IMG/VR virus record: IMGVR_UViG_3300036770_001455
Location: 1-50,132 of that record
Source: a virus
Length of the DNA stretch: 50,132 bases
Strand: one strand, 5' to 3'
The notes below the pieces were generated by a model that saw only the letters and a list, made by a program, of their open reading frames with translations, searched no databases and was not told the origin of the DNA. The translations under genes were made by a program, and so were the position numbers. Below are positions 4,166-29,356 of this stretch, piece after piece. Every line of letters starts with the position of its first letter. Within the stretch, counting starts at the first letter, position 1.

Positions 4166-7100
4166 TGGCGACGGTGATCGGACTTGGCGTGCAGTTCTCG
4201 GCCAATGCCAACGGCATGACCAAGGGGCTGTCGCAGGTCGATCGCCAGTTGCAGAACCTCGGCAAGCAAGCCAGCCAAGCAGCGAGGCTCTTTGACGGGT
4301 TCGCCTCATCGAGTGGTGCGGCAGCAGCGGCACAGCAGCAGGTCGCCACCGATATTGCGTTCCTGACGAGTGCCTTCAAGACCGGGCAAATCTCGTCAGA
4401 GACGTTCGCCGAGACACTGCGAGACATCACCTCCAGTGCCCAGCAATCGGCGGCTGCGTTCGCCGAAGGGGCACGGATCACGGAGCAGACGGCAACCGCC
4501 GAAGAGCGGCGTGTCGCTCAACTCGACCGGCTTGGCGACCTGCTCCAGCAAGGTGCAATCGACGCGGAGACCTACGGGCGGGCCGTGGCATCGTCGACTG
4601 CCGGATTCGACGGCACGCAGGCGGAAAGGTTTGCCCAGGCTATCGCTCCGCTGCGTGAGCAGTTGCAGTCGGGTGCTATCTCGCTGGAGGAGTTCAATCG
4701 GCAGGCGGGTGGCGTAGCCGATGCCGTCTCTGGCTCCACGTCGTCGGCGCAGCGTAGTGCCGAGGCGATTCTGGAACTCAAGCGGCAACTTGATGCCGGG
4801 GCGATCTCGATTGAGGAGTACCGCAATCAGTTCTCTCAGATCCAGGCGGGCAACATTTCCAGCACGCTCTCGGTCGAGGTGCTCGGGATTCGTGAGGGCA
4901 TTGCGGCGAGTGCGGACCTCCAGGCTGCGATCGCCAGTCTTGAAGGCACGCAGATCGAAGCGGCGTTGCAGATCACGGGCGTCGATTCGATTGACGACCT
5001 GCGGCAGCGGTTTGACGGCGTCGATGGGCGGCAACTCGATGCGTTGCTGCAAGTGCTGGGTGTCGAGTCGATCGAACTGGCACGGCAGCAGTTGGCGGCG
5101 ATCGACGGCACCGAGGTGCTGGCCCAGTTGCAGACTGCCGGGTTTGAGTCGATTGAGGAAGCCCGGTCGCTCCTCGACAGCGTCGAAGGCAAAGACATCA
5201 CGCTCCTCGCCGAGACGCTTGGCATCGAGTCGATCGAGCAACTCACCGCCGTCATCAACGCGGTCGAGTCTCGCACGGTGGAGTTCAACGTTGACTCCAA
5301 CGCGGACGAGACGGCGGCTCAGGTCAAGGCGTTGGTCGATGAGCAGGCGGCGTATCAGCAGTTGCTTTCGGAAGCGGCTCGCATCACCCAGAAATACACG
5401 AGCGACGAAGAGCGGAGGGCGGCAGCCATTGCCAAGATTGAGGAACTCAATCGGGCGGGCGTGCTGTCCGAGGAGATTTACTCGCGGGCGATCGAGGACG
5501 CGAGCGGGGCGAAGGCGGAAGCGGCCCGCGTCGACCAGCAGAGGGCGGCGGATTCCGCCCGTGCCGCGCAGATCATCGAGGCGAATCTGTCTGCTGAAGA
5601 GCGGGCGAGCCGCGACTACGCTGCCTCGGTCGCGGAACTTGATCGGCTCGTGGCGGCTGGCGTTCTCACCGAGGCGGACTACGCCAAGGCGGTTGAACGC
5701 TCGGCGGCGGCCTTTGCGAAGGCGACCGTGGCGGCAGCCCGCTACGAAGACGCGGCAGACGGTGCCGGTGACGCGGGCGTGCTGAAGTTCAATGAACTCA
5801 GCGGCGTGCTCGCTGCGATCCCCGGCCCGATCGGCAACGTCGCTGGTCGGCTCTCTGGGTTGGCGAGTGCAGGCGAAGGGTTGAGCAGAGTCTTTGCTGG
5901 CGGACTCTCGCAGGGGCTCGCGAGTATCGGCACGTCCGTTGCCGGGCTTGTCAATCCGTTTACGGCGGGGCTGGCTGCGGTTGCGGCGTTTGGTGCCGGT
6001 GCGACTGCGGTGGCTCGCGGGCTCCTCGATCTTGAGGACCGCGTCGAGAACCTCGGCAACATCGCCGACAAGTTGGGCGTGTCGTTCGAGTTCATCCAGA
6101 CGCTCGAAGAATCCGCCAATCGTTCCGGCACGAGCATCGACGCCGTGAGTGCGGCATTCGGTCGGCTTCAGAAGTCGGTGCTGGGCGTGGACGAGGAAAG
6201 CAAGGCGGCACAGAAAGCCCTGGCCGAGATCGGCGTCACGGCGGAGCAGTTGCAGTCGCTCAGTCCCGAAGAGCAGTACAAGCTCATCGGCGATGCGTTG
6301 TCGGGTATTGAAGATCCCGCCCGGCGGACGGCGGCGGCTACGGCGTTGTTTGGGCGTGCCGGTGCTGACCTGCTTCCGTTCTTCCGCAACCTCGGGCCTG
6401 CGGCAGCGGACATCGAGCGGCTTGGCGGTGCGTTGTCGGACATCGACCGGCGGCGGATCGACGACTTCGGAGCCGGGCTCGATGCCCTTGGCGTGGCGAG
6501 TTCGCGGCTTGGCGAGTTGCTGCTAGTGCCATTCGCGGGGCTTGGCGAAGGGATCACGCAGGGCACAGCGGAGTTCCTCGGTGGCATCAACCGTATTGCC
6601 GATGCGATTGGAGACATTCTCGCGCCTGAGATGAATACTCTTGGCAACCTGTTTCAGGCGATCGGCGCGGCTGCGTCTGTGGCCGCCGACATCATCGCCA
6701 CGTCGTTTCGGCTTGTGCAGCAAGTGTTGGAGCCGATCGGCGGGAGCATCCTGCCAGCGGTCGGGGCTGGCATCGCGTTTGTCAATCGGCAGATCCTTGT
6801 CGGTGCCGTGGCGAATCTGGCGAAGTTCTTCACGGCGGCTGCGGCTGCGGCTGTTGCGTACGCCACGTCCGCCGGTGCTGCAACCGTATCGACTGCGGCT
6901 CTCGGCGTGGCGATTCGCGGGGCAATCAACTCGACGGGCGTTGGCGTTCTCGTCACTGGCTTTGGGCTCGCGGCGGGGGCGTTGCTGGAGTGGGCGTTTT
7001 CCTCTGATGAGGCTGCTGAGTCCACGAATCGCCTGTCAGAAGAAATTACGAGCGCAACGAATCAAGCATCGGCATTCGGCCAAGAGGGTGTCGCAGCCCT

Positions 7101-8244
7101 AGAGCGATACAAGCAGCGGCTCGAAACGATTGCTGAATTGCAAGACAGCGGCGTGTTCTCTCCCGAGCGAGCCAAAGCTGCTGCTGACCAGGCGAGGCAG
7201 GGTTTTGAGCAGACGATCGCCGGATTCAATGCCGAGGCGGTCGCCAACAAGTTTTCGGATGCAGTTGGAGATGCCGCGACGGCGGCTTCAGAGTTTGGGC
7301 AGGCGGGTTTTGAAGCCGCATTTGCCTACCAGCAATCGCTCCAGCAAATCTCTGAACTGCTGGCTGATGAAACTCTGACGCTGGACGAGGCGAAACGTGC
7401 TGCCGAGCAAGAGAAGGCTGCGTTTGAGGCTCGCATCAAACTGCTCGATGAAGAGGCAAAAGCCCGCGAGCGAGTTGCGGATGCAGCCGAACGTGCCGCC
7501 GAAGCCGCGATCCAAGCCGATCAGCGGCGAGCCGACTCGTTCATCGCCAACCAAGGGCTCGGCGGCGAAGACCCGGCGACCAAGGCGGCGGAAGACCTTC
7601 TTGCGATCACTCGCCAGATCGAGGAAGCCGAGGCGGCGATCGTCGCGGCTCGTGCTGCCGGTGACGCTGCGGCGGAACAGGCTGCGACTCGACGCCTTGC
7701 GATTCTCGACCAAGCTGAAGCCGCCGCGCAGGAGACGGTCGAGTTCGGGTTTTCGTCTCGTGATGCTGCCCGTGCGATCGAGGAAGTTCGCGGTCGGCTC
7801 GATGAGACGTTCACGTTCGACAACTTTGAACTCGCCCCCGAGGCGTTCGCTGCCGCTCAGGAACAGTTGCGGCAGTTGGAGCTTGACCTTGAGGCGAAGG
7901 TCATCGACCCAGACACCTTCGAGGAAGCCGCCGACGCCATCCGCCGTGGCTTCGATGACGCTCTGCGGACTGCCGAGCAGATCCGCGACCTCAATGAGCA
8001 ATACGCCGAACGGGCTGCGGAGATTGATGCCGAGCGGATTCAGGCTCTCTCGCAAGTCTCGCAGCAACCGCTCCAGATCGAGGACGTTCGGACGGGCGCT
8101 GGCATCAGCGAGTTTTTGAGGTTGGCGACCGGGCGTGAAGACCCTGCGATTGCTGAGTACCGCAAGCAGCTTTCCGAACTCCAGAAGATCGCCCGCGAGA
8201 TCCGCGAGTTGGGTGGCGTCGTCGACATCGTGGGGGCGAACTGA
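4165..8244 (+). CDS. tape measure protein
   Basis: 1359 residues, by far the longest gene, directly after the tail chaperones. Mostly alpha-helical coiled sequence. Residues about 60-240 and 395-510 repeat a helical hairpin with the pattern L..G.(I/L)S.E.Y..A. Residues about 245-380 hold a 27-residue tandem repeat keyed on GVESI/GFESI/GIESI. Two hydrophobic stretches (about 580-625 and 885-945, the second rich in Ala and Gly) match the membrane-interacting segments of tape measures. The C-terminal third is Glu/Ala coiled coil. At the usual rule of about 0.15 nm per residue the tail would be near 200 nm. The protein sets tail length and assists DNA entry. No lytic domain is evident. Confidence 0.93.
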   Translation: MATVIGLGVQFSANANGMTKGLSQVDRQLQNLGKQASQAARLFDGFASSSGAAAAAQQQVATDIAFLTSAFKTGQISSETFAETLRDITSSAQQSAAAFAEGARITEQTATAEERRVAQLDRLGDLLQQGAIDAETYGRAVASSTAGFDGTQAERFAQAIAPLREQLQSGAISLEEFNRQAGGVADAVSGSTSSAQRSAEAILELKRQLDAGAISIEEYRNQFSQIQAGNISSTLSVEVLGIREGIAASADLQAAIASLEGTQIEAALQITGVDSIDDLRQRFDGVDGRQLDALLQVLGVESIELARQQLAAIDGTEVLAQLQTAGFESIEEARSLLDSVEGKDITLLAETLGIESIEQLTAVINAVESRTVEFNVDSNADETAAQVKALVDEQAAYQQLLSEAARITQKYTSDEERRAAAIAKIEELNRAGVLSEEIYSRAIEDASGAKAEAARVDQQRAADSARAAQIIEANLSAEERASRDYAASVAELDRLVAAGVLTEADYAKAVERSAAAFAKATVAAARYEDAADGAGDAGVLKFNELSGVLAAIPGPIGNVAGRLSGLASAGEGLSRVFAGGLSQGLASIGTSVAGLVNPFTAGLAAVAAFGAGATAVARGLLDLEDRVENLGNIADKLGVSFEFIQTLEESANRSGTSIDAVSAAFGRLQKSVLGVDEESKAAQKALAEIGVTAEQLQSLSPEEQYKLIGDALSGIEDPARRTAAATALFGRAGADLLPFFRNLGPAAADIERLGGALSDIDRRRIDDFGAGLDALGVASSRLGELLLVPFAGLGEGITQGTAEFLGGINRIADAIGDILAPEMNTLGNLFQAIGAAASVAADIIATSFRLVQQVLEPIGGSILPAVGAGIAFVNRQILVGAVANLAKFFTAAAAAAVAYATSAGAATVSTAALGVAIRGAINSTGVGVLVTGFGLAAGALLEWAFSSDEAAESTNRLSEEITSATNQASAFGQEGVAALERYKQRLETIAELQDSGVFSPERAKAAADQARQGFEQTIAGFNAEAVANKFSDAVGDAATAASEFGQAGFEAAFAYQQSLQQISELLADETLTLDEAKRAAEQEKAAFEARIKLLDEEAKARERVADAAERAAEAAIQADQRRADSFIANQGLGGEDPATKAAEDLLAITRQIEEAEAAIVAARAAGDAAAEQAATRRLAILDQAEAAAQETVEFGFSSRDAARAIEEVRGRLDETFTFDNFELAPEAFAAAQEQLRQLELDLEAKVIDPDTFEEAADAIRRGFDDALRTAEQIRDLNEQYAERAAEIDAERIQALSQVSQQPLQIEDVRTGAGISEFLRLATGREDPAIAEYRKQLSELQKIAREIRELGGVVDIVGAN
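4978..5301 (+). repeat. 81-bp tandem repeats inside the tape measure gene (four units)
   Basis: Units start at 4978, 5059, 5140 and 5221, each 81 bp and opening with codons for G-hydrophobic-(D/E)-S-I. The encoded 27-residue unit is roughly G.ESIE.AR..L..(I/V)(D/E)G..(L/V)..L(Q/L)..L. A degenerate preceding unit (LEGTQIEAALQIT, about 4930) shows the array once extended upstream, and a decayed final unit runs into VESRTVEF. Such an array can expand or contract in frame. Confidence 0.8.
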
Positions 8245-17317: not shown

Positions 17318-18208
17318 TCAGTCGAGGTTCAACGGCGGCAGGTAGTCCAACGCCGTCTTTGGGGCCGTGATCCGAGGGTCTAGGTAGTGAGCCCGCGTCA
17401 TCTCCGGGCTGGCGTGCCCAAGGTGTTCCGTTGCATCCCCGCCACCGAGGGCGACGTATGAGGCGGAAGACTTCCGCATCCGATGGAAGCCCGTGCCGCG
17501 AACCCCCGCCCGCTTGCAGAGCAGGGCGAGGCTCGGCCACAGCGAGTGGTAGTGTCGATCCCAACGCCAGACGAGGGATTCGGGCTTCCCCTGCCGGGCA
17601 CGCAGCATCTTGGCGAGATCAGGCGTGATGGCACGCTGAATGTCAGCCGATCGCCCCTTGCGGGTCTCGGCCCGGAAGAGGATCGTCTGCCCGTCTAGAT
17701 CGACATCCTGCCAGCGGACTTCCAGAAGGGCACCGATCCGCTCCCCGGAGCACCACGCCGCGTACAGCAGCGTCGACCACCACCAGGCACTCGGCTTCCC
17801 GTCAATCGTGCCGATCCGCGTCTTCGCCAGCCGGATCAGCCGGGCGACCTCGTCGGCGGTATATGCCTGCGGGGCGTGCCTGATTTTCCTAGAGCGTGGC
17901 AGCGACAGGAACTCTACGTCAGTGCCGTCGCTGCGCTTCAGACGCTTCTTTGCTGCCCAATTGGCGAGGGCGGTGAGTTGGCTCTTGTCTTTCGCCACAG
18001 AGGCGGCAGAGGGCTTCCCACGGCGTCTGGGCGTGTTTGCTCGCCACCTCAGGAACCCAGCCACCACAAGATCGTCGATATCGTCAAGCGTCGGCTCGTG
18101 GCCGAGGTGCTCGGCAAACCGATCGAGCGTATGCCCGTAGAGCGTCACGGTGCGATCGGTCAGGTTCTGCAAGATTGCGTACTTCGCAAGAATCTCTCTC
18201 AGCGTCAT
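17318..18208 (-). CDS. int: tyrosine-family integrase (site-specific recombinase)
   Basis: 296 residues from complement ATG 18208, preceded by AGGAGA; the 78-codon upstream extension is rejected. N-terminal SAM-like DNA-binding domain (about 1-105) then a catalytic domain with R157 in SGERIGALL, K184 in ETRKGR, H242 and R245 in FHRMRKS, H265 in LGHASPEM and the nucleophile Y275 in AHYLD. All catalytic residues are present, so it should be active. It integrates and excises the phage. A promoter and palindromic operator lie upstream and a tRNA-derived core site adjoins, fixing it as the main integrase. Confidence 0.92.
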   Translation of the reverse strand: MTLREILAKYAILQNLTDRTVTLYGHTLDRFAEHLGHEPTLDDIDDLVVAGFLRWRANTPRRRGKPSAASVAKDKSQLTALANWAAKKRLKRSDGTDVEFLSLPRSRKIRHAPQAYTADEVARLIRLAKTRIGTIDGKPSAWWWSTLLYAAWCSGERIGALLEVRWQDVDLDGQTILFRAETRKGRSADIQRAITPDLAKMLRARQGKPESLVWRWDRHYHSLWPSLALLCKRAGVRGTGFHRMRKSSASYVALGGGDATEHLGHASPEMTRAHYLDPRITAPKTALDYLPPLNLD

Positions 18209-18233: not shown

Positions 18234-18262
18234 AGGATATCAATCGCTGTACAGGTGTACAA
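18234..18262 (-). promoter_or_regulatory. predicted integrase promoter (minus strand)
   Basis: On the minus strand TTGTAC (complement of 18257-18262) and TATCCT (complement of 18234-18239) are separated by 17 bp. Transcription would begin near 18227, leaving about 19 bases before the ATG at complement 18208. TATCCT matches the -10 consensus at four positions. The palindrome at 18248-18261 overlaps the -35 and spacer, so a bound protein would block it. Confidence 0.55.
18248..18261. promoter_or_regulatory. palindromic operator TGTACA-GG-TGTACA
   Basis: Perfect 6-bp arms TGTACA (18248-18253 and 18256-18261) with a GG centre. It lies over the predicted integrase -35 and beside the tRNA-like core at 18269. 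TGTACA is itself palindromic, so the element is both a direct and an inverted repeat, as expected for a dimeric repressor or an integrase arm site. Confidence 0.55.
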
Positions 18263-18268
18263 GAGGGG

Positions 18269-18286
18269 GAATCCCGCCCTCTCCGC
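18269..18286. other. attP: putative attP core (identical in type to a tRNA 3' end)
   Basis: The 18-mer GAATCCCGCCCTCTCCGC reads as the T-arm/acceptor 3' half found in serine-type tRNAs (TTCGAATCCC...CTCTCCGCCA). No tRNA gene surrounds it: the bases before it (AGAGGGG) and after it (TAAACATC) do not complete one. Phage integrases of this family commonly use tRNA 3' ends, and the phage keeps the end of the tRNA as core. It stands 61 bp upstream of the integrase start. The tRNA identity (serine) is inference from the acceptor sequence. Confidence 0.6.
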
Positions 18287-18293
18287 TAAACAT

Positions 18294-18328
18294 CTGCCCG
18301 GTTCCTCGACTGTAAGGGGGCCGGGCAG
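18294..18328. other. inverted repeat beside the att core
   Basis: CTGCCCGG (18294-18301) and CCGGGCAG (18321-18328) are perfect complements with a 19-nt spacer. The repeat lies between the att core and the excisionase-like gene, where integrase arm or excisionase sites are expected, and could also fold as an RNA hairpin in a transcript from either side. No T-tract. Confidence 0.35.
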
Positions 18329-18394: not shown

Positions 18395-18422
18395 TTGATT
18401 CGGCTTGCTACGTCGGTAGAAT
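18395..18422 (+). promoter_or_regulatory. early promoter P3 with operator half-site
   Basis: TTGATT (18395-18400), 16-bp spacer, TAGAAT (18417-18422). TCGGTA at 18413-18418 overlaps the -10 by two bases, exactly as in the promoter at 18740-18768. The left half is degenerate (TTGCTA). The expected start is at about 18429-18430, coincident with the ATG of the excisionase-like gene, implying a leaderless message. Confidence 0.5.
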
Positions 18423-18429
18423 CGCTGGA

Positions 18430-18696
18430 ATGATCGTGGCACTCAAAGAACCGAAACGAACGCTCTGCACATGCCGTGAGGCGGCGAAGATCCTCGACTG
18501 CACGATGGGCAGGGTGCGGCAGCTTTGCCGGAAGCCGAAGACGGGCGACCCGGTGCTCTGGTCTGCCAAATTCAATGATCGCGCCCTGGTGCTGGACCTC
18601 GACGAGGTGAAGCGGCTCGCCAAGGCCCGCCAGAAGGCCCGAGACGCTGGCATCCTGCCGGGAGCCAGGCCGGGCGGGTTTGAGCCGGATAGATGA
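18430..18696 (+). CDS. excisionase-like helix-turn-helix protein
   Basis: 88 residues. CREAAKILDCTMGRVRQLCR (15-34) is a helix-turn-helix of the MerR/excisionase type, followed by a wing-like strand (ALVLDLDEVKRLAKA), which is the typical layout of phage excisionases and Cox-like proteins. It is divergent from the integrase across the att region, as excisionase genes often are. The C-terminal RPGGFEPDR is unstructured. It could alternatively be a small repressor; no second domain is present. Regulation: it lies directly behind promoter P3. Confidence 0.65.
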   Translation: MIVALKEPKRTLCTCREAAKILDCTMGRVRQLCRKPKTGDPVLWSAKFNDRALVLDLDEVKRLAKARQKARDAGILPGARPGGFEPDR

Positions 18697-18739
18697 TTTC
18701 CCGGCAAAAACGCCCCAGAAAAAAATCTTCTCAAGCCCC

Positions 18740-18768
18740 TTGACCTAATCTACCGATGTCGGTATAAT
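18740..18768 (+). promoter_or_regulatory. strong early promoter P1 with TACCGA-TG-TCGGTA operator
   Basis: TTGACC (18740-18745), 17-bp spacer, TATAAT (18763-18768): the best sigma-70-type promoter in the window. The palindrome TACCGA-TG-TCGGTA (18751-18764) fills the spacer and overlaps the first two bases of the -10, an ideal repressor position. Downstream is a 45-base leader with GAGGAGA before the gene at 18820. Confidence 0.8.
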
Positions 18769-18819
18769 ACTGGCAGACGCGGACGAGTGAGCCGCGAGAC
18801 ACTTGCGAGGAGACGAGCG

Positions 18820-18996
18820 ATGACGAAGGCAGAAGAGGTTGATCGGACAGACCTTTCGACCGCGAGCGATACAGAGCTGCGGTCGCTGAAGAACCTTGCC
18901 GACTTCGAGCGGCGGGGAGTCGTGATTGGAGACCGCGTCTTTGAGATGTTGCTGCCAAAGGTCGAGCAGGAGATTGCCCGGCGGCTGGCATGCTAA
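18820..18996 (+). CDS. small early protein, hypothetical
   Basis: 58 residues from ATG 18820 preceded by GAGGAGA; the longer frame from 18787 is rejected because it would place the start in the leader. One long helix pattern (DTELRSLKNLADFERRG, then VFEMLLPKVEQEIARRL). It is the first gene behind the strongest promoter of the window, under the shared operator, so it is probably made first after infection or induction and may be a regulator or host-takeover factor. No family recognised. Confidence 0.6.
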   Translation: MTKAEEVDRTDLSTASDTELRSLKNLADFERRGVVIGDRVFEMLLPKVEQEIARRLAC

Positions 18997-19006
18997 CCGC
19001 CAAACG

Positions 19007-19030
19007 CCCGGCGGCACTGGTGCCGCCGGG
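19007..19030 (+). terminator. perfect hairpin after the first early gene
   Basis: CCCGGCGGCAC (19007-19017) and GTGCCGCCGGG (19020-19030) are perfect 11-bp complements with a two-base centre (TG). No T-tract follows (CTGACGGACA), so it may attenuate or protect message ends rather than terminate. It separates the P1 gene from the gene at 19062. Confidence 0.5.
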
Positions 19031-19061
19031 CTGACGGACACAATCCCAAAGGGCTTAGGAA

Positions 19062-19358
19062 ATGAGCAACACGATCCGCATTCCGGCAAGATTCATCGAT
19101 GACCACCACGACCGTGGCCTTCCAACTCCAAGTGACTCCAGCGACAGCCATCGATACGCCTTGATCCGATGTGATGACCCAGCCTTGGCCGAGTTGCTCA
19201 ATGACGCAGAGCACTACGCCATCATGACTGAGCGGCGAGGTCGATATGACTGCATGCCTCGCGGGATCGTGGCATCTGCCGCAGCGACGGTGCGAGCGAT
19301 TCGCAACGTCATTGGATGGGATGACGCCTCCCCGGCAATCAGGGAACTACGCAAATAG
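19062..19358 (+). CDS. small hypothetical protein
   Basis: 98 residues with AGGA 5-8 bases before ATG 19062. His/Asp-rich N-terminus (RFIDDHHDRGL), a DDPALAELLNDAEHY helix and a C-terminal helix (SAAATVRAIRNVIGW). The pattern of small early phage proteins with an unknown host or DNA target. It is not clearly membrane-associated. No family recognised. Confidence 0.6.
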   Translation: MSNTIRIPARFIDDHHDRGLPTPSDSSDSHRYALIRCDDPALAELLNDAEHYAIMTERRGRYDCMPRGIVASAAATVRAIRNVIGWDDASPAIRELRK

Positions 19359-19434
19359 ACCGCACACGGTGGGGCCACCCGGCCAGCCGACCAGGTGCAA
19401 AACGGGTGGCAACCGCACAACGAAAGGACTCACG

Positions 19435-19671
19435 ATGATCCGCGACATCCTCCGAGCCGCTCTGTTCGTCGCCTGCATGACCATCGGTGCCGCGTTGCTG
19501 ATCGAGACACGCTACCAGATGGCGGCGATCGACGTGGCTCACCGGCAGGCCCTCGCCCCGCAGATGGTGGCCCAGCAAATGCCGCAGCCGATCGAGCAGC
19601 CAGGACGGCTTCGCCAGTTTGGGCGATCCGCTCTGAACCTTGCGGATGCCACCTTGGGTATTTTCCGTTGA
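19435..19671 (+). CDS. small membrane-anchored protein
   Basis: 78 residues from ATG 19435, with GAAAGGA upstream. Residues 6-22 (LRAALFVACMTIGAALL) form one hydrophobic helix, followed by a soluble Gln/Pro-rich tail (QMVAQQMPQPIEQPGRLRQF). The topology is an N-terminal anchor with a cytoplasmic or periplasmic tail. Such proteins in early regions may act in exclusion or membrane association of replication; neither can be shown here. Confidence 0.55.
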   Translation: MIRDILRAALFVACMTIGAALLIETRYQMAAIDVAHRQALAPQMVAQQMPQPIEQPGRLRQFGRSALNLADATLGIFR

Positions 19672-19696
19672 CACGATCTACCGACATGGCTACCGT
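19668..19696 (+). promoter_or_regulatory. early promoter P2 with shared operator half-site
   Basis: TTGACA (19668-19673), 17-bp spacer, TACCGT (19691-19696). The spacer CGATCTACCGACATGGC aligns with that of P1 (TAATCTACCGATGTCGG) from its third base, with TACCGA at the same offset (position 6). The -10 is weak, so it may need activation. It overlaps the stop region of the preceding gene and would serve the gene at 19845. Confidence 0.55.
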
Positions 19697-19734
19697 ACTG
19701 CCGACGAGAGCAACGAAACACCCCGCACCGTTGG

Positions 19735-20242: not shown

Positions 20243-21040
20243 ATGAGCACAGAGATCAGCACCCAGCGGGGAGGTTTGGCCCTGCAAAGTTTCGATGACT
20301 GCTTTCGGTTCTCGAAGATCGTCGCGAATACGGAGTTCGCGCCGAAGGATTTTCGCGGCAAACCTGAGGCGTGCATGTTGGCGATCCAACACGGCAGCGA
20401 GATCGGGCTTTCGCCGATGCAGGCTCTCCAGAGCATCGCGGTCGTGAACGGCAGGCCAAGCGTCTACGGCGACACGGCCCTGGCGGTTGTGATGGGCAGC
20501 CCGGTCTGCGAGTTCGTCCGCGAGCGGATCGAGGGCGACGGCGATCAGATGGTGGCGATCTGCGAAGCGAAGCGGAAAGGCTATGAGCGGGCGAACGTCG
20601 TGACGTTCAGCGTTGCGGATGCGAAGAAGGCTGGGCTGTGGGGCAAGAGCGGCCCTTGGCAATCCTATTCCCGCCGCATGCTTCAGATGCGGGCACGCGG
20701 CTTCTGCTTGCGTGACACGTTCCCTGACGTGCTGCGTGGTCTTGTGACGGTCGAGGAAGCCCAGGACTACGCCATGCCGCCCGACGCGCCGCCGGTCACG
20801 GTGACGCAGCCTGAGCCGACGCCTGAGCCGCAGCCGGTGAAGGTGGCGACCGACGCCGACATGCAGAAGGCGAAGCGGGCCATCAACGGGACGAAAGACC
20901 TCGGCAAGTTGGGCGACTTTCTTGCCACGGTCAACGAGCGATACGAGAGCGGCTACTACAGCGACGATCAGGCGAACGAGCTTCGCAACTTGATCGACGT
21001 GGCGATGGCGGTTCTGAATGAAAGCGAGGTGGCGGCATGA
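20243..21040 (+). CDS. recT: RecT-like single-strand annealing recombinase
   Basis: 265 residues from ATG 20243 (AAAGGG upstream); a TTG start at 20135 would add 36 unlikely residues. The core MLAIQHGSEIGLSPMQALQS, VVNGRPSVYGDTALAVV, a TFSVADAKKAGLWGKSGPW strand-turn and SYSRRMLQMRARGFCLRD is the arrangement I know from phage RecT-family annealing proteins, which pair complementary single strands in recombination and replication. The C-terminal tail (from about 200) is a Pro/Glu linker (PEPTPEPQPV) and a helical domain, likely a protein contact. It acts with the exonuclease or Hjc/RusA-type enzymes encoded nearby; no exonuclease gene was recognised. Confidence 0.7.
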   Translation: MSTEISTQRGGLALQSFDDCFRFSKIVANTEFAPKDFRGKPEACMLAIQHGSEIGLSPMQALQSIAVVNGRPSVYGDTALAVVMGSPVCEFVRERIEGDGDQMVAICEAKRKGYERANVVTFSVADAKKAGLWGKSGPWQSYSRRMLQMRARGFCLRDTFPDVLRGLVTVEEAQDYAMPPDAPPVTVTQPEPTPEPQPVKVATDADMQKAKRAINGTKDLGKLGDFLATVNERYESGYYSDDQANELRNLIDVAMAVLNESEVAA

Positions 21041-21318: not shown

Positions 21319-21481
21319 CGATTTCGCCCGGCACGCGATTGCCGCAGTGGCCCGCATAGCCACATTCACCGCCCTGGCCGCGTGGCGTTGTAACGAGCCG
21401 TTGCGATACGCGGGACATCTCCCCTGCCGAGGCGCAACCGTCCGCCGCACGTTACGCGGCCAATACACGGAAGGAAAGACG

Positions 21482-22309
21482 ATGGCACGAAAGAAGCCCC
21501 ACACATTCGCCACGCTCGCGAAACACTACCTAGCGGCACGTTCAGTCTCGCCTGTCTACGCAGACAACGTGCGGCGTGTCGCGGGCCGCATCGGTGACGT
21601 GACCAAGGAGCGGCTGAACAAGTACCTACTCACACGGATCGAGCAGGTGAGCGGCATCACGGTGCGATCGGAGCGGACGATCTGTCTGTCGATCTGGCGA
21701 TTCGCGTATGACGCCGGGATCATCGACGTTGCCCCTCGCGGCATCCTGCGGATGAAGGCTCACCGCAAGCCTACGAAGGCGTGGACGATCGCCCAACTGA
21801 AGACGCTGCTCGATGCCGCCGCAGAGCGAAACGGCAAGACGCTGCGATCTGGTGCCGACCTCGGGCTGTTCCTCCGGTGCTGGATTCTCGTCTGCTACGA
21901 GACCGGAAGCCGGTTCGGCGATTGCATGGCGTTCACCCGCGACCACCTGCAAGACGATGCCCTCGCGTGGACGCAGAGCAAGACCGGCGATCCGCTCACG
22001 CGACCGCTGACGCCAGCCTGCCTAGACGCGATCGACAAGATGCTGGCGGCGTCACCGGACGGGAGGATTCTCGGCTGGGTGTGTGGTCGGCGAATGGCGA
22101 TGCGTCACATGCGAAAGCTGATTGACTCAGTGGGCATCGGCGGCAGCAGCAAGTTCCTACGCCGCAGTGGAGCTACGCATGTCGAGATGGAACAGGCAGG
22201 AGCCGGGCGGCTGCACCTGGGCCACCGCTCGCCGCAGTTGTTTGAGCAGGCTTACTGCGATTGGTCGCAGCTGCGAACGAAGACACCGAAGACGCCGGCA
22301 TTGGTTTGA
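21482..22309 (+). CDS. second tyrosine-family recombinase, variant active site
   Basis: 275 residues from ATG 21482 (GAAGGAAAG upstream); the frame upstream of it is not coding-like. An N-terminal core-binding domain (about 5-90) precedes a catalytic domain: R144 in ETGSRFGD, K167 in QSKTGD, R227 in KFLRRSG, H248 in LHLGHRSP and Y258 in QAYCDW. The usual HxxR is KxxR here (K224), a substitution of one catalytic His; H248 and the Arg/Tyr residues are intact. It is in the replication region on the opposite strand from int and far from the att core. It may act in dimer resolution, inversion or a second integration reaction. Either is inference. Confidence 0.8.
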   Translation: MARKKPHTFATLAKHYLAARSVSPVYADNVRRVAGRIGDVTKERLNKYLLTRIEQVSGITVRSERTICLSIWRFAYDAGIIDVAPRGILRMKAHRKPTKAWTIAQLKTLLDAAAERNGKTLRSGADLGLFLRCWILVCYETGSRFGDCMAFTRDHLQDDALAWTQSKTGDPLTRPLTPACLDAIDKMLAASPDGRILGWVCGRRMAMRHMRKLIDSVGIGGSSKFLRRSGATHVEMEQAGAGRLHLGHRSPQLFEQAYCDWSQLRTKTPKTPALV

Positions 22310-24181: not shown

Positions 24182-25137
24182 TGCCACGAAAGAAGCTCTG
24201 CCGCCTCGATGATGAACGGGTTGACATGTTCCTCCCGTTGTTCTGCCGCGACTTCCTTATGAGCACGATCGGGTGGACGGCTGCCCAGCGGGGGCACTAC
24301 CTGACGCTCCTTATGGTGCAGTGGGACGGGGGCGGATTGCCTCCCGATCTGGAACATTTGGAGCGCATTTCGGGAGGCGTTTCGGAACACTGGGAACTAC
24401 TGGAAAACAAGTTTCCAGTAGGCACCGATGGTCAACGAAGGAACATGCGGCTAGAGGAACACCGAAAGGCTGCCGTCGAAATCCGCCAAAAACGCCGAGA
24501 AAACGGCAAAAAAGGAGGGAAACCTAATGGGGTACCAAATGGGGTACCAAATGGGTACCCATCCGGTACCCAAATGGGTGCCCATCCGGGGGTGCATCCA
24601 GAACCAGAACCAGAACCAGAACCACAGTCTCTCTCTAAAGAGAGAGACACGGGGAGTCCCGTCTTTCGGTCTTCGGATGGCGATCCATCGGCTAGGCAGG
24701 CAGGACACGCTGTGACCGCTTGGGAGTCTCTGCTGTCCGCCTGGAACGCTGCGGCTGGCAGGTGCAAGCACATTGCCCGGTTCGACTCGCTTCACCCTCC
24801 ACGGGCCTTCCACGATCGCTACGACGAACTGGCGTGGCAGGAGGATTGGCGGCGTGGCGTTGAACGGCTTGAGCGTTGCCGATGGTTCACAACCCCGGTC
24901 TCGCTGACGTTCTTTCTCAAGGAAGACACGCTCGCTTCAATCCTAGCCGGGCAGTACGACCCCAAAAAGCCGACGCGACCCGGCGATCAGGCGAGTGCTG
25001 GGCCAGTTGTCTCGACACGCATGTGGCGAGATGACGCCTGCCAAAACATGACAGACGAGCAATATGCCGCATGGAGGCGAACGCAAAAGGGCAGTCCAGT
25101 TGCGTCTACTGCGAACATCACGGAGGAGGATCTATGA
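24181..25137 (+). CDS. DUF1376 replication-initiator-like protein
   Basis: 318 residues. The N-terminal domain (about 15-80), FLPLFCRDFLMSTIGWTAAQ then RGHYLTLLMVQWD and a LPPDLEHLERISG helix, is DUF1376, a winged-helix domain at the start of phage replication proteins. A basic linker (KAAVEIRQKRRENGKKGGK), then a Gly/Pro/Asn repeat region and a GluPro stretch (120-150), then a C-terminal region (AWESLLSAWNAAAG to FLKEDTLASILAG) like the primosomal/DnaT-like or helicase-loading part. The linker DNA is itself repetitive and looks like a replication origin, as lambda O contains ori. It probably loads host helicase. Confidence 0.8.
   Translation: MPRKKLCRLDDERVDMFLPLFCRDFLMSTIGWTAAQRGHYLTLLMVQWDGGGLPPDLEHLERISGGVSEHWELLENKFPVGTDGQRRNMRLEEHRKAAVEIRQKRRENGKKGGKPNGVPNGVPNGYPSGTQMGAHPGVHPEPEPEPEPQSLSKERDTGSPVFRSSDGDPSARQAGHAVTAWESLLSAWNAAAGRCKHIARFDSLHPPRAFHDRYDELAWQEDWRRGVERLERCRWFTTPVSLTFFLKEDTLASILAGQYDPKKPTRPGDQASAGPVVSTRMWRDDACQNMTDEQYAAWRRTQKGSPVASTANITEEDL
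24526..24648. other. candidate replication origin inside the replication gene
   Basis: Three repeat types are packed into about 120 bp: five 12-bp units AATGGGGTACCA/AATGGGTACCCA and variants (24526-24584) with four GGTACC palindromes including the 12-bp palindrome ATGGGTACCCAT (24551-24562); GAACCA repeated four times (24601-24624); and a perfect inverted repeat GTCTCTCTCT-AA-AGAGAGAGAC (24627-24648). Iterons within an initiator gene are the lambda O arrangement. The A-rich tract CAAAAACGCCGAG...GGCAAAAAAGGAGGG (about 24488-24520) just upstream could be the unwinding element. Confidence 0.6.
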
Positions 25138-25388
25138 CCGAGATCGAGACCATCGAAAAGCCCAGCCCTAGCGAGCCCACCGACCGGCAGCGAGCCGTGT
25201 ACGAATGGGTTGTCGACTACTGCGAGGCCCACGGGTACAGCCCCAGCATCCGCGAACTCATGGCGGCGTTCGGCTTCAAGAGCCCTAACGGTGCGATGGC
25301 TCATCTGCACCCGCTGCGGAAGAAGGGCTGGCTGACCTGGAACGATCGGCACTCGCGCACCATCCGCCCGATCGGAGGCGTGAAATGA
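25134..25388 (+). CDS. LexA-type DNA-binding domain without the protease domain
   Basis: 84 residues from ATG 25134 with GGAGGA upstream and ATGA overlap with the replication gene. Residues 17-80 form a LexA-like winged helix: RQRAVYEWVVDYCEAHGYSP, SIRELMAAFGFKSPNGAMAHL, then a LRKKGWLTW wing. The Ser-Lys autoprotease part is absent; the typical LexA is about 200 residues. Such short proteins could compete with host LexA, regulate phage early promoters, or block the SOS response. The palindrome TACCGA-TG-TCGGTA in this window is a candidate target. Confidence 0.8.
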   Translation: MTEIETIEKPSPSEPTDRQRAVYEWVVDYCEAHGYSPSIRELMAAFGFKSPNGAMAHLHPLRKKGWLTWNDRHSRTIRPIGGVK

Positions 25389-26697: not shown

Positions 26698-26879
26698 CGA
26701 TCGAACAATTCACGCTTGTCAGCGTGGGAGTGTTGGTGAACGGACTTACTTTTGCCCTCGGCCTAGCCGTTGGCGCATCTCTACGAAAGGAATCGAAGAA
26801 TGGGAACGAAAACGAAGCGGGCCGCTGGCATCGCGTTGAACGCAGCGGATCTCAAGGCGGCACTGGCAACGGTGCGTGA
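26694..26879 (+). CDS. small membrane protein
   Basis: 61 residues. ATGA overlap with the methyltransferase stop. Residues 6-27 (FTLVSVGVLVNGLTFALGLAVG) make one transmembrane helix; the rest is charged and Gly-rich. Its 3' part overlaps the clamp gene (start 26800) by 80 bp, with the clamp in another frame, which limits its real C-terminus. Such short anchors are common in early phage regions. Role unknown. Confidence 0.5.
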   Translation: MTIEQFTLVSVGVLVNGLTFALGLAVGASLRKESKNGNENEAGRWHRVERSGSQGGTGNGA

Positions 26880-27906
26880 CGCGGTTCAGGAGCGGTCTCC
26901 GAAGCCGATCCTGCGGAACGTGCTCATCAGCGGCGGGCAGATGACCGCGACCGACCTGGAGTTGCAGGTGACTACGGCGATTGACTTCGACGGCCCGGCG
27001 TTGCTCTTGCCTCACGGGCGGACGGCGTCGATCCTCCACGAGTGCCGTGATGACGAGGTGACGATTGCACCGGGCGATACGTCGTGCGTGATCTCGTGCG
27101 GGCGTGGCTCGTGGACGCTGCCCACCGAAGACGCCGCCGAGTTTCCGCAGATGAGTGCGGAGGGGGCGACGAATCGGATCAAGCTCCCGGCGGACCAGTT
27201 CGCACGGGCGATCCGCTCGGTGGTCTACGCCTGCGATCGCGAGAGCAGCCGCTACGCCCTCGGTGGCGTGATGATCGAGGTGAAGGGTGAGACCGTAAGT
27301 TTCGTTGCGACCGATGGGCGGCGGCTGACGCTGACTCGGATCGATCACGACCTGGCTGTCGACGATTCGGAAACGCTCGTGCCGCAGCGGGTGGCGAAGC
27401 TGCTGGCCCGGATCGCGGAGCAGGCGGGTGGCGAGGAACTCGTCGAGATCGACGCCAGTGGCAACACGGTCGTCTGCACGATCGGCACTACCATCGTGAC
27501 GGCTCGGCTCGTGGAAGGGCGTTTCCCGAAGTGGCGTGATGTGTTCCCGAAGCGTGACGTGAAGGCAACGGTGGTTGATCGTGAGTTACTAGCGGCTGCG
27601 ACTAGAGCAGCGGCGATTACTACCAGCGAGGCGAGCAAGGGCGTTGACTACTCGATCGTCGAGAACGGCATTCACCTGCACTCGCAGAGCAGCGAGGCGG
27701 GCGAGAGCAGCGTGACGTGCGAGATCGTCGAGCCGGGCGAGACAGTGACGGTGAAGCTTGACCCTCGGTTCGTCACGGATTTCCTTGCTGGACTGCCAGC
27801 GGATAGTGAGCCGAACGTCGAGATCGAGGCGGTAACGCCGGGCGACGCCGTGCAACTCCGCAACGGCGACGTATTCGGAATCATCATGCCGCTGGCGAAC
27901 GACTGA
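26800..27906 (+). CDS. dnaN: DNA polymerase III beta sliding clamp
   Basis: 368 residues, the length of the bacterial beta clamp, from ATG 26800. The three-domain repeat is visible: NAADLKAALATVRDAVQERSPKPIL, then ATDLELQ, then VSFVATDGRRLTLTRI and VTVKLDPRFVTDFLAGLP, ending VFGIIMPLAND, where clamps end in the conserved (Y/V).(V/I)MP(M/L)R. A phage clamp would hold host or phage polymerase on the template. No DNA polymerase or clamp loader was recognised in the window, so it must use host factors or genes lying outside it. Confidence 0.9.
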   Translation: MGTKTKRAAGIALNAADLKAALATVRDAVQERSPKPILRNVLISGGQMTATDLELQVTTAIDFDGPALLLPHGRTASILHECRDDEVTIAPGDTSCVISCGRGSWTLPTEDAAEFPQMSAEGATNRIKLPADQFARAIRSVVYACDRESSRYALGGVMIEVKGETVSFVATDGRRLTLTRIDHDLAVDDSETLVPQRVAKLLARIAEQAGGEELVEIDASGNTVVCTIGTTIVTARLVEGRFPKWRDVFPKRDVKATVVDRELLAAATRAAAITTSEASKGVDYSIVENGIHLHSQSSEAGESSVTCEIVEPGETVTVKLDPRFVTDFLAGLPADSEPNVEIEAVTPGDAVQLRNGDVFGIIMPLAND

Positions 27907-28600: not shown

Positions 28601-29356
28601 ATGAGGTGGGCCGCGTTACTCGCCGGGCTCAGTTGCGTTGCCGCTGTCGCTGGCACGATTGATGACGCCGTTCCCGATGCCCGGTATGTCGAGTATGGTC
28701 GGGCGTTCTCGAAATACACGGCGAAGTTTCGCGGCACTGCGGAAGACGGTCGGACGCATGTAGCGAGCGCCGTGCTCGTGGCTCCACGGTGGGCGATTAC
28801 GGCGGCGCATGTCGCCGCCGGCTGCACGGGCGTGACGCTGACTTACAGCGGCGACCGCGTCGGCGAGATCGAGCGGGTGATCGTCCATCCCGAGTGGGCC
28901 GATGAAGGGCTCGGACGGCACGACATCGCACTTCTGGAGGCGGCTGCCGACTTCGGGCTGGAGTTCTACCCGCCTCTTTCCGAGGGCGGCGAGGTTGGCA
29001 AAGTCGCCAGCGTGGTCGGCTACGGGGCGACCGGCCCCATGAGCTACGGGCACACCAAGGTCGACGGCATGCTCAGGGCTGGAACGCAGCGAGTCGACAG
29101 GATTGAGAGAAACTGCCTCGTGTGTAACCTCACGCTTCGCGGTTCGTCGATGGAAATCGGCATCGCCCCCGGCGACTCCGGTGGCCCGCTGTTCGTTGAT
29201 GGCAAGCTGGCGGGCATCAACAGCTACACGGCATCGCCACGCTCCTACACGCGAAGCCAGTACGGCGAGGAGAGCGGGCATACGCGGGTGGCGGTGTACC
29301 GCGAGTGGATCGCGAGAGTCGCCGGCTTGACACCGCCGCCATCCTCGCCGGAATGA
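28601..29356 (+). CDS. secreted trypsin-like serine protease (S1 family)
   Basis: 251 residues. A signal peptide is plausible at the N-terminus (RWAALLAGLSCVAAVAG). The catalytic triad is complete: H70 in ITAAH, D108 in RHDIALL and S193 in GDSGGP. Disulphide-type Cys are at 172/175. Trypsin-type proteases are unusual in phages. Being exported, it could cleave host envelope or extracellular proteins, or block competing phages. The gene is coupled to RusA by ATGA, so its timing is early-to-middle rather than late. No inhibitor gene is adjacent. Confidence 0.85.
   Translation: MRWAALLAGLSCVAAVAGTIDDAVPDARYVEYGRAFSKYTAKFRGTAEDGRTHVASAVLVAPRWAITAAHVAAGCTGVTLTYSGDRVGEIERVIVHPEWADEGLGRHDIALLEAAADFGLEFYPPLSEGGEVGKVASVVGYGATGPMSYGHTKVDGMLRAGTQRVDRIERNCLVCNLTLRGSSMEIGIAPGDSGGPLFVDGKLAGINSYTASPRSYTRSQYGEESGHTRVAVYREWIARVAGLTPPPSSPE

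Follow-up and report, generated by a model that had tools for sequence, protein, structure and literature searches.

The window, that is the whole stretch of DNA analysed here, corresponds to a complete virus record of IMG/VR, 50,132 bases long, in which terminase, portal and capsid genes are present. It carries a tyrosine integrase on the minus strand (17318-18208, Pfam PF00589 and phrog_1) with a probable ATG at 18208, and divergently from it, on the plus strand at 18430-18696, the gene of an 88-aa protein which is placed in the excisionase family of winged-helix proteins by an AlphaFold2 model, by structure matches and by the HMM matches of its relatives. From the gap between these two genes, and running opposite to the integrase, the 88-aa gene is followed by two early units, among whose genes are recT and those for a primosome-like protein, for a LexA DNA-binding domain standing alone and for a DNA polymerase III beta clamp. 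The first gene behind promoter P1 (18820-18996, plus strand, 58 aa, with GAGGAG ahead of its start) and the first gene behind promoter P2 (19845-20138, plus strand, 97 aa, with relatives in L002-L004 and L044) have no assigned function, and most early genes are without annotation. The RecT-type annealing protein of the early operon behind P1 and P2 lies at 20243-21040 on the plus strand (PF03837, phrog_561), and the LexA-like gene, at 25134-25388 on the same strand, encodes the DNA-binding domain alone (PF01726) with the peptidase domain absent, TIGR00498 being matched only over residues 5-67 of 203. Of the predicted genes that were scanned many have no match at all, and no XRE-type protein, as in a lambda-type CI/Cro pair, was recognised in the set.

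Several other features of the region can be described as well. Between the integrase start and promoter P3, at 18240-18300, there are TGTACA repeats and a ATGCCCTCCGCT-like block, which recur in the int-xis gap of many relatives and are probably the attP core and the integrase sites. The excisionase-like gene adjoins both this probable attP block and the tyrosine integrase, from which it diverges in the window as well as in the relatives. A second tyrosine-recombinase-like gene at 21347-22309 lies within the early operon, and the phage encodes a trypsin-like protease (28601-29356) and its own sliding clamp (26770-27906).

The putative operator sites lie in three separate promoters, all of which point in one direction, along the plus strand. 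The early promoter P1 (18740-18768, TTGACC-17-TATAAT), as read directly, has its -35 at 18740-18745 and its -10 at 18763-18768, and inside it at 18751-18764 is the putative operator O1, a perfect palindrome TACCGA-TG-TCGGTA (TACCGATGTCGGTA), an inverted repeat whose half-site centres are 8 bp apart and which ends on the two bases that open the -10. This is the sole exact copy of the palindrome in the 50,132-base record, where with twelve specified bases about 0.003 exact copies would be expected by chance. P2 (19668-19696, TTGACA-17-TACCGT) has its -35 at 19668-19673 and a weak -10, TACCGT, at 19691-19696; its putative operator O2 (TACCGACATGGCTA, 19679-19692) retains the left half intact with 2 mismatches to the full palindrome, and the TACCGA at 19679 begins 11 bases past the start of the -35, an offset identical to that in P1. 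A possible second box (TGCCGACGAGAGCA, 19699-19712, plus strand), degenerate here, lies 20 bp from O2. P3 (18395-18422, TTGATT-16-TAGAAT), the promoter of the excisionase-like gene, has its -35 at 18395-18400 and its -10 at 18417-18422, the latter ending 7 nt before the ATG, and its spacer of 16 bp is one shorter than that of P1. Its degenerate putative operator O3 (18405-18418, 3 mismatches to the palindrome) consists of a left half TTGCTA and an intact right half TCGGTA (18413-18418), the final TA of which is common to the -10, the same overlap as in P1. An earlier note on this DNA had described the perfect palindrome in P1, the shared spacer offset of TACCGA in P1 and P2, and the two-base overlap of TCGGTA with the -10 in P3; all three descriptions hold, and by direct reading the coordinates given for all three promoters proved right.

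The same note had named an equal frequency of the motif in coding regions as something that would refute its reading, and the outcome does not refute that reading, as exact sites are unique and promoter-bound. When three mismatches are allowed, the window contains 27 matches against 12.3 +/- 3.4 in shuffled sequences, nearly all of them in coding sequence. Since such matches are common and mostly coding, sites with three mismatches are uninformative by themselves, and it is because of their conservation in relatives that O1-O3 stand above chance.

This conservation was followed in 18 viral contigs which encode the excisionase-like protein and were collected by a protein-based search. The palindrome of P1 is found in every one of them (16 perfect, 2 with one mismatch), located 287-378 bp past the start of the excisionase-like gene and 3' of that gene, within a promoter of the pattern TTG-N16-18-TANNNT; the -35 and -10 of P1 are kept in all 18, with spacers of 16-18 bp. 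Over 15 loci aligned without gaps, conservation is 99% in the twelve columns of the palindrome and 53% in the flanks, and when the half-sites were permuted, a mean of 0.01 exact palindromes (maximum 1) was obtained against 12 observed in the same set of loci. Likewise P3 is present upstream of the excisionase-like gene in all 18 relatives, and the right half TCGGTA of O3 is kept in all but one of the 19 promoters compared, the exception (L005) having CCGGTA; the left half drifts among the relatives, being nearly intact in L005 and L006. In every relative the ATG follows the end of the P3 -10 by 6-10 nt, so that transcription likely begins at the start codon or very close to it, and thus the mRNA of the excisionase-like gene is probably leaderless. 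The P2-like site, with its TTGAC..TACCGA element, is found in 14 of the 18 relatives and was not found in the other 4 loci; a second box 20 bp past it is often seen, and five relatives (L140-L144) have there a clear and full TGCCGA-NN-TCGGCA palindrome. As a separate observation, L003 bears one more promoter-operator, TTCCGATGACGGTA, at position 7465, beyond the integrase and some 2.5 kb upstream of the excisionase-like gene, and no counterpart of it was found in the window.

As for the protein itself, the AlphaFold2 model shows a winged helix-turn-helix over residues 10-70 with a pLDDT of about 90 in the core, and its succession of elements (E10-14 H15-22 H26-33 E45-47 E53-56 H57-72) is that of a wHTH, with two helices, a wing of two strands and a C-terminal helix. 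The nearest solved folds are Xis of mycobacteriophage Pukovnik (Z 7.2, Foldseek probability 1.00) and BldC (Z 7.3-7.7); with Z below 8, such matches back the predicted fold and not the function. The profile TIGR01764 matches 7 and phrog_2655 matches 10 of 17 family members, the window protein itself matching just HTH_17 at E 0.11, and a PDB sequence search with the family profile gave nothing significant. No match to the excisionase-like protein was obtained in bacterial genomes and plasmids, and the integrase has a single match, at 28%, in phage records, which together indicate that there is no cultured relative.

The operator can also be followed by its DNA pattern, without the protein. A pattern scan of viral contigs found the int-xis-operator locus again in L044, L046, L068, L105 and L106, and the same scan also gave L116, which bears recT. 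In more distant phages which the scan likewise brought up (L154, L155 and L054, and L023 and L063) the operator stands in promoter geometry and is adjoined by the gene of a small winged-helix protein, whose recognition helix has the form [VI]R[QRK]L and which is 26-34% identical to the window protein; for example in L154, a site with one mismatch lies immediately ahead of the start of the winged-helix gene. In L023 (about 5000-5218) and L063 (1338-1523) a csrA-like gene comes directly behind the operator-bearing promoter. A looser viral pattern gave 120 matches, most of which were judged to be chance, the -35 being absent.

In a further pattern-only scan, which covered 84,980 species of bacteria and archaea with a single genome each, the operator was sought in promoter geometry. 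There were 12 matches, 9 of them in Bacilli, and 8 of these 9 lie 35-37 bp before a gene that joins an excisionase-type HTH to a Fic domain (HTH-Fic). Two other matches, one in a coding region (L129) and one near a tRNA-Arg gene in Woeseiaceae (L135), appear to be chance matches or unrelated promoters. Three of the Bacilli genomes with an HTH-Fic match, each about 1 Mb in size, have no exact palindrome other than the one at the HTH-Fic promoter. Moreover, among 117 genomes of the order, the palindrome with at most 2 mismatches is located 29-39 bp upstream of 10 of 13 Fic homologues with an intact HTH and of none of 17 without it (Fisher P about 1e-5, a statistic that ignores shared descent). 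The HTH profiles of the phage and Fic groups align with each other (hhalign 87.7%, E 3.4e-6) at just 23% identity over 44 columns, and TIGR01764 ('excise') matches both groups. The HTH-Fic genes of Bacilli resemble the phage in that an identical 14-bp operator, placed in the promoter in the same way, stands ahead of the coding region for a homologous HTH, and they differ in being chromosomal and in the Fic domain to which the HTH is joined; their mRNA, unlike the probably leaderless one of the phage, would carry a leader containing a ribosome site of the GAGGTG type. In the fusion genes L128, L130, L132, L134 and L136-L139 the operator is in the register of the phage promoters, and in several of them another copy lies 34 bp upstream.

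Since the operator travels with the excisionase-type HTH in such unrelated settings, the phage's own excisionase-like protein is the likeliest reader of O1-O3. We thus regard it as probable, on the evidence of sequence comparison, that O1-O3 are operators of the 88-aa protein, which would repress P1 and autoregulate at P3. A dimer, or two monomers head to head, would cover the inverted repeat TACCGA-N2-TCGGTA, and as this lies between the -35 and the -10, RNA polymerase would be occluded. At O1, the full palindrome would keep P1, from which the early operon (recT, primosome, clamp) is read, tightly repressed; at O3, where the right half alone is intact, the gene of the protein itself, probably leaderless, may be expected to be under a weaker negative feedback; and at O2, the left half, perhaps with the second box 20 bp downstream, would give an intermediate control of the second early unit. 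The gradient of site quality, perfect in P1 and reduced to the right half in P3 and the left half in P2, thus predicts a tight shut-off of the early operon and a loose autoregulation. The outcome would be a homeostat for the prophage or for early infection, in which the protein level is held steady and the early operon is kept off. What is in hand are the sites with their conservation and their register in the promoters, the predicted fold, and the co-occurrence of the sites with homologous HTHs elsewhere, and it is from these that we infer binding, repression, the order of affinities and any second role in excision. Against this reading stand the inverted arrangement of the half-sites, where the solved relatives of the fold bind direct repeats, the low identity between the HTHs of phage and Bacilli, the weak -10 of P2, and the 4 of 18 loci in which a P2 site was not found. 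The suggestion of the earlier note that one repressor controls the excisionase-like gene and two early units and would bind P1 most tightly is supported by the comparison, with P1 as the symmetric and invariant site and P3 and P2 as conserved, half-degenerate versions of it. As a more tentative extension, which we consider possible and somewhat doubtful, the excisionase-like protein may be the lysogeny (immunity) repressor through the palindromes and the directionality factor at attP at the same time, replacing CI/Cro and made from an autoregulated leaderless mRNA, with the same palindrome-reading HTH reused as an autorepressor domain on the Fic enzymes of Bacilli.

The earlier note had named two candidate binders, the excisionase-like and the LexA-like protein, and of these it is the former that is now favoured, as the operator tracks its type of HTH. 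That the LexA-like protein of the phage, or the LexA of the host, binds the sites as SOS boxes seems quite improbable to us. A LexA DNA-binding domain is indeed encoded among the early genes, and most relatives conserve it, so that co-occurrence alone would leave a LexA-like binder in play; however, L150 and L151 keep the operator, and no LexA-like match was found there, and the HTH-Fic promoters of Bacilli bear the same operator with an excisionase-type HTH as the common neighbour. As for the host, a planctomycete is tentatively proposed on the basis of a single contig (L131) that carries the operator and belongs to a MAG of Planctomycetota. Beside planctomycete LexA-type matches, the motif with at most 3 mismatches is absent from 17 of 17 upstream regions, at least 10 of the 17 having recognisable LexA N-termini, and in 91 kb around 30 such matches no motif was seen at up to 1 mismatch. 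A planctomycete MAG has a single exact copy of the palindrome genome-wide, and among 149 genomes of the phylum 5 have a match, about the same as with a reversed-pattern control and thus without excess. A host-wide regulon was accordingly rejected, the four contexts shown other than the phage-like L131 being without the promoter geometry.

It is also conceivable, and in our judgement unlikely, that another regulator of the phage or the host binds the sites and the excisionase-like protein is a linked passenger acting in excision. The scarcity of annotation among the early genes would leave room for such a regulator, and the case for the excisionase-like binder is drawn from comparison; against this, the operator tracks the excisionase-type HTH across unrelated phages and Bacilli, and a host regulon was seen neither in the MAG nor in the 149 genomes of the phylum. 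Least probable of all, and hardly to be expected, is that TCGGTA and TACCGA belong intrinsically to the promoter, as an extended -10 or a spacer element, and are read by a host sigma factor. The fusion of the right half to the -10 in P1 and P3 of all relatives would agree with this, but in P1 the two halves are kept as a strict inverted repeat and in P2 it is mainly the left one that remains, half-sites elsewhere in the window fall outside this cluster, and the host genomes show no enrichment. The reading that we prefer, with the excisionase-like protein as repressor, offers a testable model of early control for uncultured phages that possibly infect planctomycetes, and the 14-bp tag can be searched for to locate early control regions in phages without a recognisable repressor.

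Excisionase-type regulators are known to read direct repeats, often as filaments. For the solved relatives of the fold, namely Apl, RdfS and BldC, the bound sites are direct repeats spaced by one turn (PMC7498355, PMC11963761), and Apl of phage 186 represses pR and pL by way of direct repeats of 6 bp that lie 10-11 bp apart (PMC7498355). Like Apl and the Cox proteins of P2-like phages, the window protein is a small DNA-binding protein of the excisionase class which is encoded in the integrase region and would act at early promoters, and it probably works like them there; however, the operators of Apl are direct repeats bound cooperatively in arrays, whereas the putative ones of the window are single inverted repeats inside core promoters, and since O1 is a 14-bp inverted repeat, the protein is not filed as a member of Cox/Apl. 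RdfS of ICEMlSymR7A, a wHTH excisionase, represses its own promoter, apparently with a weaker affinity there (PMC11963761), and it differs in that it binds as an oligomer, has no palindromic operator in an early promoter and activates intS. BldC of Streptomyces binds direct repeats head to tail, and both BldC and Pukovnik Xis are only 17-20% identical in sequence to the window protein. Euo of Chlamydiae, in the PVC superphylum, is an excisionase-like wHTH turned promoter-binding master regulator (PMC4989314), which differs in having two tandem wHTHs, AT-rich repeated minimal boxes and a chromosomal gene. The palindrome itself is printed in none of the literature examined. As dual excisionase-repressors are already known, the departure from the known excisionase-type regulators lies in the inverted-repeat operator, and, if true, such a palindromic operator within the core promoter would represent a second mode of recognition for the excisionase fold family, extending across phages and the Fic genes of Bacilli.
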